This document shows positions 5,259 through 29,923 of a stretch of 30,022 bases of DNA, piece after piece. The stretch is from a virus. Position numbers and translations under genes: made by a program. Below the pieces are notes generated by a model. It was not told where the DNA came from. It searched no databases and saw only the letters and a list, made by a program, of their open reading frames with translations. Location: positions 1-30,022 of the IMG/VR virus record IMGVR_UViG_3300032236_000229, one strand, 5' to 3'. Position 1 is the stretch's first letter, and the number at the start of each line of letters is the position of its first letter.

Positions 5259-6479
5259 TTAAGCTGCAACACGGCAAGCAAGTTCAGGGTACAACGGAGC
5301 CCAACCATAAAGAACGTCTAAACGTGTAGGAATAGAGTCATTATTGATTGTGTATTGGCGAACCACACGCATTGACAAGCCGATTTCTTTATCAGAAGCA
5401 CGACCAGCAAAATGAACACCTTCAGGCAACTCAAGGTCGGCTACTGCTAGAGTAAACGCATTGCGGTGCATGATGATGTTTTGTGGAGATACTGCGCCAG
5501 AAGCATTGAATGGAGTAACAGCAGATGCGCCAGCAGAAGTGATAGAAACGTTTTGGAACTGACCGCCAGAGATAACTGCTGGAGAAACAGTAACGCTATT
5601 ACCGCTAATTGCTTTAACAACGAAGTTACGCAACTTGTTAGAACCGTAAGCTTGACGGTTTTGTGGGTTGACTGCAAATACGTTAGCAATAGTGAATGTA
5701 TCACCTACGTTTGGTGTAAATGTACCTGATTTGCTCAATGTCAATGTTGATGTTGAAGCCCAACCAGTTGTCAAAATACCTGAGTCTGTTGAAGTATTGA
5801 TAGTAGCTGTACCTGAGTATGAGCCGAATGTTTGGCTCACAACGTTTTGGTCCATCTTCCAGTTCATACCAGCAGAGTCACGACCCATTAAACCTTTACG
5901 ATATTGTTCACCGATAGCTTCTTGTGGAACGAATAAACCTTTCAAGCTGTCAACGATAGTTGCAGATGTGAACGGCTCAACGATGCAAGAACGACGGCCA
6001 TCACGAGGAGCGCCTTCAGCGTCAAGGTAAGCACCAGCTGTCAAGTAAGTAATCAAGCCAGTTGGAGGAGTACCAGCAACACCAACGATGTTAGCTGTGT
6101 TAGCAGTAGCCATAGCTAAACCATCACGGTCAATCTTATTGGCGATAGCTGCAACAGCAGGTTTCAATACACGGTCAGAGAACATATCTAAAGACAATGC
6201 CAAATCTTGTGTTGTGAACTGTGTGTCAACGTGGAATTGTGTTGACAAAGTTACAGGCACAGAAGTTTCATTGAAGTCCTCTACGTTCAAAGCTGGGCCA
6301 GTTGTACCGATGAAACGGCCTGGGCGACGTACGTTTACTGTGTTACCAATTTTTGCGCCAACAACAGCGAATTGGTCGTCATAGTTGCGGTCTACTTCTG
6401 AAGTAAATGTTAGTTCGTTTTCGAGGACCATTAAGGCCTCATTAGTAATTTTCGATATCGTCAATAAATTATTTGACAT
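5259..6479 (-). CDS. Major capsid (coat) protein, P22 gp5-like
   Basis: 406 aa. The N-terminal region (ITNEALMVLENELTFTSEVD) followed by the GAKIGNTVNVRRPGRF block at about residues 41-56 is characteristic of the P22 coat family. The middle of the protein is Ser/Thr-rich, as expected for the inserted domain region. Length is close to P22 coat (430 aa). It lies directly downstream of the scaffold gene and has AAGGA before the ATG at 6479. It forms the icosahedral shell around the scaffold. The assignment rests on motif recognition and order, and is strong. Confidence 0.92.
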   Translation of the reverse strand: MSNNLLTISKITNEALMVLENELTFTSEVDRNYDDQFAVVGAKIGNTVNVRRPGRFIGTTGPALNVEDFNETSVPVTLSTQFHVDTQFTTQDLALSLDMFSDRVLKPAVAAIANKIDRDGLAMATANTANIVGVAGTPPTGLITYLTAGAYLDAEGAPRDGRRSCIVEPFTSATIVDSLKGLFVPQEAIGEQYRKGLMGRDSAGMNWKMDQNVVSQTFGSYSGTATINTSTDSGILTTGWASTSTLTLSKSGTFTPNVGDTFTIANVFAVNPQNRQAYGSNKLRNFVVKAISGNSVTVSPAVISGGQFQNVSITSAGASAVTPFNASGAVSPQNIIMHRNAFTLAVADLELPEGVHFAGRASDKEIGLSMRVVRQYTINNDSIPTRLDVLYGWAPLYPELACRVAA

Positions 6480-13391: not shown

Positions 13392-14138
13392 TTGAAAATT
13401 TTATTGTTGGACATAGAAACATCACCTAATGTAGCTCATGTATGGGGTATATGGCAACAAAACGTAGGGTTATCCCAATTATTAGAATCATCATACACCA
13501 TGTGTTATTCAGCTAAATGGTTGGGAGAAAAAGATGTTTATTTTGATTCCGTGCATCAAAGCACCTCTATTTCAATGTTAAAAGGCATACACGGGCTTTT
13601 AGATGAAGCTGATGCAGTTTGCCACTATAACGGAACAAAGTTTGATATGCCCACGTTAAACAAGGAATTCCTAATACACAAAATGACACCTCCACCACCT
13701 ATGAAACAAATAGATTTATTGAGAGTGGTTAAAAGTCAATTTAGGTTTCCAAGTAATAAATTAGATTATGTTGCACAAAGATTAGGTTTGGGGAAAAAGA
13801 AAGACCATGAAGGGCATACATTGTGGATTAAATGTATGGCAAACGATAGAAAAGCATGGTCAACAATGAAAGAATACAATATTCAAGACGTGTTATTGCT
13901 AGAAAAGCTATACAACCGATTATTACCTTGGATTAAATCACCAATTAATAAATCAATAATGATGAAAGATAGGAAAGGGTTTATTTGTCCTACTTGTGCA
14001 AAAGCTACATTAGTCAGTAAGGGATTTAGATATACCACTACAGGCGCATTTCAAAGATACCAATGTAAATCTTGTGGCGCATATTCAACAGATACTAGAA
14101 CAGTAATCCCACATACAAAGGTGAAACATTTAGCATGA
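13392..14138 (+). CDS. DEDD-type 3'-5' exonuclease with C-terminal zinc ribbon
   Basis: 248 aa from a TTG start at 13392 (AAAGGGG six bases upstream; no in-frame ATG would include the first catalytic strand). RNase H-fold exonuclease motifs: D7-I-E9 (Exo I), HYNGTKFD85 (Exo II) and Y163-N-I-Q-D167 (Exo III, YxxxD). Residues 200-229 form a zinc ribbon (C200-x2-C203, C226-x2-C229). It is a stand-alone proofreading or nucleic-acid-processing enzyme of the predicted YprB/DnaQ-like type. It forms a two-gene rightward unit with the SprT-like gene inside leftward genes. The start overlaps nothing. Confidence 0.85.
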   Translation: MKILLLDIETSPNVAHVWGIWQQNVGLSQLLESSYTMCYSAKWLGEKDVYFDSVHQSTSISMLKGIHGLLDEADAVCHYNGTKFDMPTLNKEFLIHKMTPPPPMKQIDLLRVVKSQFRFPSNKLDYVAQRLGLGKKKDHEGHTLWIKCMANDRKAWSTMKEYNIQDVLLLEKLYNRLLPWIKSPINKSIMMKDRKGFICPTCAKATLVSKGFRYTTTGAFQRYQCKSCGAYSTDTRTVIPHTKVKHLA

Positions 14139-16022: not shown

Positions 16023-16215
16023 TTTTCCTTCTTTCCCATAAAACATACAAACTGTTTTCAATACGCTTTCTTTCAGGCATCCCACGTCTTTCCATTACTA
16101 ATACTAGATACTTTCTTCTTTCTTGTAAAGGCATTTTTGCAATGTGTCGTATTTCGCACTCATGTCGCCACTGTTCAGAAAAGGTATCAAGCTCCTGATT
16201 GAATAAGTCGTTCAC
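16012..16215 (-). CDS. Small conserved phage protein next to the replication gene
   Basis: 67 aa from a GTG at 16215, with AAGG eight bases upstream, overlapping the DUF1376 gene by 29 bases. The core RHECEIRHIAKMPLQERRKY and the following L...MERRGMPERKRIE resemble a short family repeatedly found beside phage replication genes (the RHxCEVR...RRxYL...RRG pattern, possibly DUF7696). The function is unknown. It is basic and helical. Confidence 0.6.
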   Translation of the reverse strand: MNDLFNQELDTFSEQWRHECEIRHIAKMPLQERRKYLVLVMERRGMPERKRIENSLYVLWERRKNET

Positions 16216-16924
16216 GATATTGACCTTCTGTTTCTCCTGTTTTTGGCTCAATACCCATTTCCTTTCCTTTAGCCATAACACCAGCTACTGATTGATGCCA
16301 TTTAACCGTAGATTTATCAGAAGTAGTAACAGATTTTACTTTTTGATTTCTTACCCAATTTCTCCAAGTAGCTAACCAATCTAACTTTGCTCCTTTTTGA
16401 CCGCCTTGTGCAATCCAATAATCTCTAAATTGGTCAAATATTTCTTTAGGGTTTAAATCAGGTCTATTGGTTTTGCAAAACAACTCCCAGTCTTTTGGCA
16501 ATTCTTCTATTTTTAATCTTTGTGCTTTGGGAGCTTTAGCGACACCAATAATATGGTTATTGGTTAATGGTTCTTGGTTCTTGGTTGGTTGAACGGTCGT
16601 TGAACGGTCGTTGAACCTTCGTTCAGCAGATGCCTTTCCTGCTTTACTGGCTTGGCTTACACGGTCGTGATACTTTTCAATTTCTTCATCAATTCGCTTG
16701 TTATGCCAACAATCATCATCCTCTAAAACAAAAAATTCATTCAATACTGCATCAACAACTTCAACAGTTGAGCGAACTTTACGAGCTATAGTTGAACGGT
16801 CGTTGAACGGCTGTTCAGCTAAATAATAAAGGTCAATCATTCGCCTGTAGGCTAAATCTTCTTCATTAGAAAGATGGCTTGTGTGGGAGATGTAATCTCC
16901 AATGTGGAACGGATAAAAATTCAT
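16187..16924 (-). CDS. DUF1376 (YdaU-type) replication protein
   Basis: 245 aa from ATG 16924 (AAAGG upstream; a TTG five codons earlier is rejected). The N-terminus MNFYPFHIGDYISHTSHLSN, then EEDLAYRRMIDLYYLAEQPF, is diagnostic of DUF1376, found in the initiator position of many lambdoid and P22-like genomes. The middle is low-complexity and contains repeated FNDRST peptides encoded by 11-base DNA repeats, an arrangement like lambda O with its internal origin. The C-terminal half (WELFCKTNRPDLNPKEIFDQ, DWLATWRNWVRNQ) is a helical domain. The gene opens the leftward replication operon. Confidence 0.85.
   Translation of the reverse strand: MNFYPFHIGDYISHTSHLSNEEDLAYRRMIDLYYLAEQPFNDRSTIARKVRSTVEVVDAVLNEFFVLEDDDCWHNKRIDEEIEKYHDRVSQASKAGKASAERRFNDRSTTVQPTKNQEPLTNNHIIGVAKAPKAQRLKIEELPKDWELFCKTNRPDLNPKEIFDQFRDYWIAQGGQKGAKLDWLATWRNWVRNQKVKSVTTSDKSTVKWHQSVAGVMAKGKEMGIEPKTGETEGQYRERLIQSGA
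16588..16627. repeat. Iteron-like direct repeats, cluster 1 (candidate origin)
   Basis: 11-base units start at 16588, 16599 and 16610: GTTGAACGGTC twice, then GTTGAACCTTC, followed by a partial GTTCAGC. They lie inside the DUF1376 gene, next to AT-rich sequence (about 16500-16570). The period of 11 bases, near one helical turn, fits initiator binding. Confidence 0.65.
16791..16819. repeat. Iteron-like direct repeats, cluster 2
   Basis: GTTGAACGGTC (16791-16801) is directly followed by GTTGAACGGCT (16802-16812) and a partial GTTCAGC (16813-16819). It has the same unit and end as cluster 1, about 190 bases away, within the same gene. Confidence 0.6.
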
Positions 16925-16929
16925 ATATG

Positions 16930-16942
16930 CCTTTGTCAAAGG
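16930..16942 (-). promoter_or_regulatory. Palindrome covering the DUF1376 ribosome site
   Basis: CCTTTGACAAAGG on the minus strand can fold as CCTTT-GAC-AAAGG, placing the AAAGG ribosome site in the stem, 5 bases before the ATG at 16924. This could limit translation of the replication protein. Confidence 0.45.
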
Positions 16943-16975
16943 TAGTCACAAAAAAAGTGGGCAGGTCGGTGACTA
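16943..16975. repeat. Inverted repeat TAGTCAC/GTGACTA in the divergent region
   Basis: Perfect 7-base arms (16943-16949, 16969-16975) surround a 19-base spacer that contains A7. It lies in the leader of the leftward replication operon and is a candidate operator or leader stem-loop. Confidence 0.5.
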
Positions 16976-17012
16976 AGCGACTTTTCGGGGTTAACACCCT
17001 AGCCACAAACGA

Positions 17013-17040
17013 AATATACACCTAAAAAATATTTTTGCAA
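17013..17040 (-). promoter_or_regulatory. Leftward promoter of the replication operon
   Basis: On the minus strand TTGCAA (17040-17035) and TATATT (17018-17013) are 16 bases apart. The transcript would begin near 17006 and carry a GGGT-GTTA-ACCC stem-loop (16999-16988), then the larger inverted repeat, before the DUF1376 start. Confidence 0.6.
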
Positions 17041-17056
17041 ATAATTAAAAAAATAC

Positions 17057-17085
17057 TTGCAATACTGCTATTAGGGGACTAATAT
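17057..17085 (+). promoter_or_regulatory. Rightward early promoter
   Basis: TTGCAA (17057-17062) and TAATAT (17080-17085) are separated by exactly 17 bases. Transcription would start near 17092, at a TTACC-AACTC-GGTAA stem-loop (17091-17105), followed by AAGGAG and the ATG at 17120. It is back-to-back with the leftward promoter 16 bases away. Confidence 0.7.
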
Positions 17086-17090
17086 CTGTA

Positions 17091-17105
17091 TTACCAACTC
17101 GGTAA
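17091..17105 (+). promoter_or_regulatory. 5'-end stem-loop of the early mRNA
   Basis: TTACC-AACTC-GGTAA makes a 5-pair stem at the predicted transcript start, 3 bases before the AAGGAG ribosome site. Confidence 0.5.
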
Positions 17106-17119
17106 ACAAGGAGAAACAA

Positions 17120-29411: not shown

Positions 29412-29923
29412 CAGTTGTCTGCTCCCTCTCCTTTTAGATTAGCAGATACTATAACACATTTTACAGCATCGGTGACCACTACTTCATAAACTCTATCTCT
29501 AGCCCAACCCAATCTGCGCCAAATAGCACGATTCTTGTATTTACCCTGTTGACCAATAGAAGTCCAATGCTCATTAGACCATGTTGAACCACCGTCATTT
29601 GACCAACGTAACATAGCTTGAGGATTAGCACCAACAGTCGCTAAATTGGCAACACCTGCTCTTGCTAAACCTGCTACGCCTACACCAGCTACACCATTTG
29701 TAGGGCTTGTAGAGCCTGTAACATTGCCTTCTAAACCTACGCCTGGTTGAAATTGAAGCTGTAATTCAGAGAAATATTGTCTTTGGAAGTCACTAACAAT
29801 ATGAGGACATCTGCGAACTCTGCGAATTTCATTACCATTATCTGTGTAATTTTGTGGGTCTAATTGGTAAATAATGCCGTTGGCATAATCTCCAACCAAA
29901 ATCATGTTTTGGAAGTTAGCCAT
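29411..29923 (-). CDS. P22 gp10-like tail accessory protein, C-terminal part (interrupted gene)
   Basis: 170 aa from the first ATG after an in-frame stop. No ribosome site precedes this ATG. The ILVGDYANGIIYQLDPQNYT, RRVRRCPHIVSDFQRQYFSE and MLRWSNDGGSTWSNEHWTSI segments, and the RAIWRRLGWARDRVYEVVVT end, are those of the phage stabilisation protein gp10, which plugs the portal. The same frame continues upstream to the right edge, broken only by one TAA. The gene is therefore longer than this ORF. Its C-terminus is complete and overlaps the HNH start. Confidence 0.85.
   Translation of the reverse strand: MANFQNMILVGDYANGIIYQLDPQNYTDNGNEIRRVRRCPHIVSDFQRQYFSELQLQFQPGVGLEGNVTGSTSPTNGVAGVGVAGLARAGVANLATVGANPQAMLRWSNDGGSTWSNEHWTSIGQQGKYKNRAIWRRLGWARDRVYEVVVTDAVKCVIVSANLKGEGADN

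Follow-up and report, generated by a model that had tools for sequence, protein, structure and literature searches.

The DNA analysed here (hereafter the window) spans an entire IMG/VR virus record (30,022 bp). The record is classed there as linear and may therefore represent a fragment. On its minus strand, positions 16187–16939 contain a gene for a 250-amino acid protein of the DUF1376 (YdaU-type) family, which is a putative replication initiator. The protein matches PF07120 (DUF1376) with E = 3e-21 and a score of 76 bits, for which the cut-off is 30.1; this is its only Pfam match, PF14297 (Lin1244/Lin1753-like) being unmatched. It also matches PHROGs annotated as 'primosomal protein' and 'replication initiation protein'. 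In the AlphaFold model (mean pLDDT 87.7), a confident N-terminal winged-helix domain (model residues 11–90, pLDDT 92–98, encoded on the minus strand at 16667–16906) is followed by a low-confidence, probably disordered linker (residues 110–138, minus strand, 16523–16609; pLDDT 50–57 at residues 111–130) and by a separate C-terminal domain (model residues 139–249, minus strand, 16190–16522). The C-terminal domain probably serves in partner recruitment; residues 160–209 and 123–216 weakly match PHROGs 1408 and 1032, respectively, which are replication initiation proteins.

The structural matches of the N-terminal domain to winged-helix proteins have Z scores of ~6, which are middling and indicate the fold class only. 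No solved structure matched the DUF1376 protein by sequence, and a Foldseek search against the PDB yielded no confident match (best E = 0.46). Viral models of DUF1376 and Lin1244-type proteins in BFVD resemble each other in fold, and an hhalign comparison of DUF1376 with Lin1244_N gave a weak result (probability 2.7, E 0.017).

Two clusters of short direct repeats are present inside this gene. A first-pass annotation had described units with 11-base spacing at 16588–16620 and 16791–16812 and had proposed them as a candidate replication origin, and the units are found at both places: exact copies of GTTGAACGGTC start at 16588, 16599 and 16791, units with two mismatches start at 16610 and 16802, and TRF reports an 11-bp array at 16588–16616 with 100% matches. 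The GTTCAGC sequences that end the two clusters (16621–16627 and 16813–16819) are also present, but they are not partial units; they are diverged units in register, reading GCTGAAC on the coding strand, which brings the clusters to four and three units, respectively. Cluster 1 (16588–16627, minus strand) thus has a unit every 11 bp, with cores at 16621–16627 (GCTGAAC), 16610–16616, 16599–16605 and 16588–16594 (GTTCAAC). Cluster 2 (16791–16819, minus strand), which lies in the part of the gene that encodes the winged-helix domain, has cores at 16813–16819 (GCTGAAC), 16802–16808 and 16791–16797 (GTTCAAC). When read along the coding (minus) strand, the linker contains GTTCAACGACC GTTCAACGACC GTTCAACC in tandem and the N-terminal domain GTTCAACGACC GTTCAACTATA, in both cases preceded in register by the diverged GCTGAAC unit. 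Cluster 1 is followed on this strand by heptamers of the AACCAAT type (AACCAAG, AACCATT and AACCAAT; 16545–16587, minus strand), which form a putative DNA-unwinding element and are detected by TRF as a 7-bp array at 16554–16586. Cluster 1, which corresponds to residues ~105–117 of the protein, and the heptamers coincide with the low-confidence linker of the AlphaFold model.

Matches to the unit pattern number nine in the window against a mean of 3.9 in shuffled sequences, and none of 100 shuffles reached nine. We further compared the gene with 5,000 synonymous codon shuffles, which preserve the protein sequence and codon usage. None of these reached the period-11 score of the gene, its period-7 score, to which the heptamers belong, or its number of GTT[C/G]AAC cores (five, against a mean of 0.92). 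Within the window, the arrays occur in this gene only, although the record may be incomplete.

To survey the family, DUF1376 genes were gathered by protein search alone and clustered at 70% identity into 82 lineages, and the DNA self-similarity at each period was compared with synonymous shuffles; the lineages are not fully independent, and the counts are therefore descriptive. Relatives selected by repeat pattern were kept out of the statistics because they had been chosen by the repeat itself. With multiples of three excluded from the periods counted, 60 of the 82 lineages beat all 100 shuffles, and nearly all of the best periodic segments were located in the linker (residues ~100–180). The lineages that beat all 60 shuffles numbered 52 at period 7, 50 at period 14, 31 at period 11 and 26 at period 22, with 23 and 20 at periods 21 and 12. 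Adjacent periods were nearly empty (0, 5 and 1 lineages at periods 10, 13 and 17, respectively), and control ORFs from the same loci scored in 0–1 of 82 cases at periods 7, 14, 11 and 22 and in 0–4 at any period. The region enriched for DNA periods 7/14 and 11/22 is the linker between the DNA-binding and C-terminal domains.

The iteron sequence varies between lineages; the spacing and layout are constant. The largest iteron class, GTT[C/G]AAC, comprises 24 lineages, and the other classes are of the AACCCAG, TGC(G/C)AAC, AATCAGA and GTGAC types. The GTT[C/G]AAC core is near-palindromic, both central-base forms occur, and successive spacings are exactly 11 bp in 29 of 38 cases and 22 bp in five. 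In 21 of the 24 lineages, the DNA past the array has a higher AT content than the gene, strikingly so where the gene is GC-rich. The 50 nt that follow the array are 63% AT versus 52% for the gene, and in several genes with 36–45% AT overall they reach 60–66%. The second cluster noted in the window also has counterparts: in lineages with linker iterons, the coding sequence of the N-terminal domain contains 23 cores versus 4.4 expected. In the DUF1376 genes of L140, L148, L155, L156, L236 and L239, CCAACA hexamers (period 6) replace the heptamers.

Two observations from the survey weigh against an origin. The nearest relative in the first search, L001 (64% identity), lacks GTTCAAC units and carries 12-bp units of the CTGAAATCAGAA type along with the same heptamers; from this pair, which differs in iterons and shares heptamers, it seems that origin specificity can switch fast. 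In addition, iteron class showed no clear covariation with the recognition-helix residues among the lineages.

The base composition around the arrays is less telling. The AT-rich DNA that had been reported beside cluster 1 does exist (65% AT at 16545–16587), but it is modest within an AT-rich window and barely exceeds its surroundings, which also weighs against an origin here; such a tract is conspicuous only in high-GC relatives. GC skew, which had been suggested as a check, turns at 16765, inside the DUF1376 gene, but has its minimum for the record at 29743; because the skew follows gene direction, which switches at ~17.0 kb, it is uninformative as to the origin. The intergenic region at 16940–17119, which is probably an early promoter region, contains an 80% AT stretch at 17020–17070.

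An alternative in which the arrays are sites where the DUF1376 protein acts mainly on its own expression or copy number (as an operator or by handcuffing), with the true origin elsewhere, could place that origin in this AT-rich intergenic region, for example, because it lies between divergent genes and includes the least stable DNA nearby (17010–17070). Plasmid iterons can also serve copy control. However, the region from 16940 to 17119 does not contain a single GTT[C/G]AAC core, and the linker arrays lie ~300 bp into the gene, with unwinding-type repeats after them in one lineage after another, a position that is odd for an operator and is that of the lambda ori. We consider this alternative unlikely.

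In relatives, the DUF1376 gene has a primase/helicase gene, a DnaC-like loader gene (ydaV in Rac) or a DnaB-like ORF after it, and the order in Pseudomonas phage phPA-G is CI repressor, CII-like, DUF1376 and primase/helicase. Among the window genes searched, none was recognisable as a helicase loader, which weighs against the origin reading. Elsewhere in the window, a plus-strand gene inside a minus-strand region (13392–14138) encodes an RNase H-like exonuclease to which a possible zinc ribbon is fused; it matches PHROG 403 ('DNA polymerase exonuclease subunit'). Phased direct repeats are also found at packaging, partition and recombination sites, and the arrays might serve another DNA transaction of this kind or a host protein. 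This is quite improbable, because the arrays go with the initiator gene and not with terminase, partition or integrase genes, the iteron sequence changes between lineages within one gene family, and the terminase of the window is 5 kb away from the arrays.

The strongest evidence on the nature of the arrays comes from Lin1244-type homologs. A search whose query was limited to the first 118 residues of a Lin1244-type protein yielded 80 close homologs, which are 81–100% identical to that query. At least one core is present in all 80 (206 cores in total versus 28.7 expected), 123 of 126 core spacings measure 11 bp, and the last core falls in all three reading frames (33, 27 and 20 genes). One 30-mer, CAACGACCGTTCAACGACCGTTCAACAAAG, recurs unchanged in all three frames: 6 genes read it in frame 0, 15 in frame 1 and 14 in frame 2. 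The N-termini of these genes are 77–96% identical, and the resulting peptides include STTVQRPFNDRSTKE, STTVQRPFNKGK and NDRSTTVQQSK. Furthermore, the 11-bp array occurs with AAAGT pentamers in non-coding DNA of three contigs, L016 (9139–9166), L053 and L073. L016 additionally contains a Lin1244-type gene that carries an array of its own; immediately after this gene comes a DnaB-like ORF, called as such from the translated sequence and not by profile search.

Because the same array is found in three frames and in non-coding copies, selection acts on the DNA, and the FNDRST peptides are a by-product. The first-pass annotation had stated that relatives keeping FNDRST peptides with unrelated DNA repeats would refute its proposal; the DNA unit is kept in relatives while the peptide shifts through three frames, and FNDRST peptides with unrelated DNA were not seen. 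In the window protein, the repeated FNDRST peptides do appear twice, but only because the 11-bp unit lands twice in the same frame. The explanation in which the arrays would be useful for the repetitive peptide they encode (FNxRSTxVQ), with the DNA repeats following from protein repeats or replication slippage, is therefore highly improbable: similar peptides are encoded by repeats in many relatives and low complexity is tolerated in linkers, but protein-preserving synonymous shuffles fail to recreate the repeats, neutral slippage leaves the 11-bp period across different iteron sequences unexplained, and the three-frame reading and the non-coding cassettes led us to reject selection at the peptide level. 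Such frame-sliding arrays represent an unusually clean case of DNA-level selection overriding the encoded protein. Arrays of GTTCAAC were also observed outside DUF1376-type genes in L120 (a long array on the minus strand of a GC-rich contig, ~6197–6360) and in L092 (2235–2262), where the array lies ahead of a RuvC-type resolvase-like ORF.

Taken with the survey, these results make it likely that the DUF1376 gene is the replication initiator gene and that the coding sequence of its linker is the theta origin of the phage. This reading is based on the frame-independent conservation of the array at the DNA level, the layout, the domain architecture and the gene context in relatives, from which we infer binding, melting and helicase recruitment. 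The winged-helix N-terminal domain would bind the 11-bp units, which, at one per helical turn, would all face the same side of the double helix. With multiple copies of the initiator bound, a nucleoprotein complex could form and open the heptamer tract beside the units, and the C-terminal domain may recruit the DnaB helicase, either directly or via a loader. The array layout recurs in dozens of distant phage lineages, and, as far as sequence can tell, the 11-letter repeats are very probably the start site of phage DNA copying.

We also lean towards a broader view, in which a frame-independent origin cassette combining 11-bp iterons with unwinding repeats of 5 to 7 nt would be a general property of DUF1376 and Lin1244-type phage initiators. 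This cassette would exist in several iteron specificity classes, slide through the three frames of the linker, sometimes be non-coding, and define where replication starts in a very large number of uncultured phages as well as in the Rac prophage (oriJ). DUF1376 still counts as a domain of unknown function; its members occur in phages and prophages across many Proteobacteria, E. coli K-12 among them. In the literature searched, in which subscription journals were thinly covered, no description tied DUF1376 or YdaU to origins, and a plasmid search returned 11 weak records, none of them decisive. If our reading is true, the DUF1376 gene would be an initiator gene, and the origin could be located by sequence alone in hundreds of genomes.

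The suggestion of an origin embedded in its initiator gene, on the model of lambda O, gains support from the frame-independent array, the non-coding cassettes and the 11- and 7-bp periods of the linker. In the lambda ori in gene O and its Stx-phage relatives, the iterons likewise sit within the initiator gene, separating the part for DNA binding from the C-terminal part, with an AT-rich tract on their 3' side (PMC7466680). Tandem iterons within the initiator coding sequence are present here, and the AT-rich or unwinding tract 3' of the iterons is clear in relatives and weak in the window, where the heptamers are nevertheless significant. The early position of DUF1376 after cI/cro-type genes in relatives is another similarity. 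The lambda iterons occupy O codons 117–144 and are followed by an A-rich tract, a position comparable with that of cluster 1; they are 18 bp long with starts 20–24 bp apart, whereas the arrays described here consist of 11-bp units followed by 5- to 7-mer repeats. Unlike the lambda ori, the DUF1376 system often has a second cluster in the N-terminal domain and uses several iteron classes, and these are the four features in which it differs. An hhalign comparison of DUF1376 with a single lambda O sequence detected nothing (probability 0.2). The DUF1376 system would work like the lambda ori and SPP1 oriL, and membership of the lambda O family is not implied.

SPP1 oriL similarly lies within an initiator gene, gene 38, and combines direct repeats with an AT-rich unwinding element; its pairing with the non-coding oriR (PMC6316719) resembles the in-gene and non-coding arrays of L016, where the DnaB-like ORF adjoins the gene. 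Iteron plasmid origins are also similar: together with an initiator gene, they have direct repeats in phase with the helix next to an AT-rich tract. However, plasmid iterons are usually outside the rep gene and are longer than the units described here.

The E. coli Rac prophage has an active origin, oriJ, for which no mapped position was found in the literature searched. Its YdaU protein (ydaU, b1359) belongs to DUF1376 (E = 2.7e-26), and the next gene is ydaV, which encodes the DnaC-like loader. The linker of ydaU (gene at L136:10120–10977) contains GTTCAA/GTTGAA-type repeats followed by GATACAGATAAAGAT, but the repeats are degenerate, with spacings of 33 and 12, and the period test is not significant. 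Because ydaU is a member of the DUF1376 family, its linker is a candidate site of oriJ, and our reading, if true, predicts the location of this origin.
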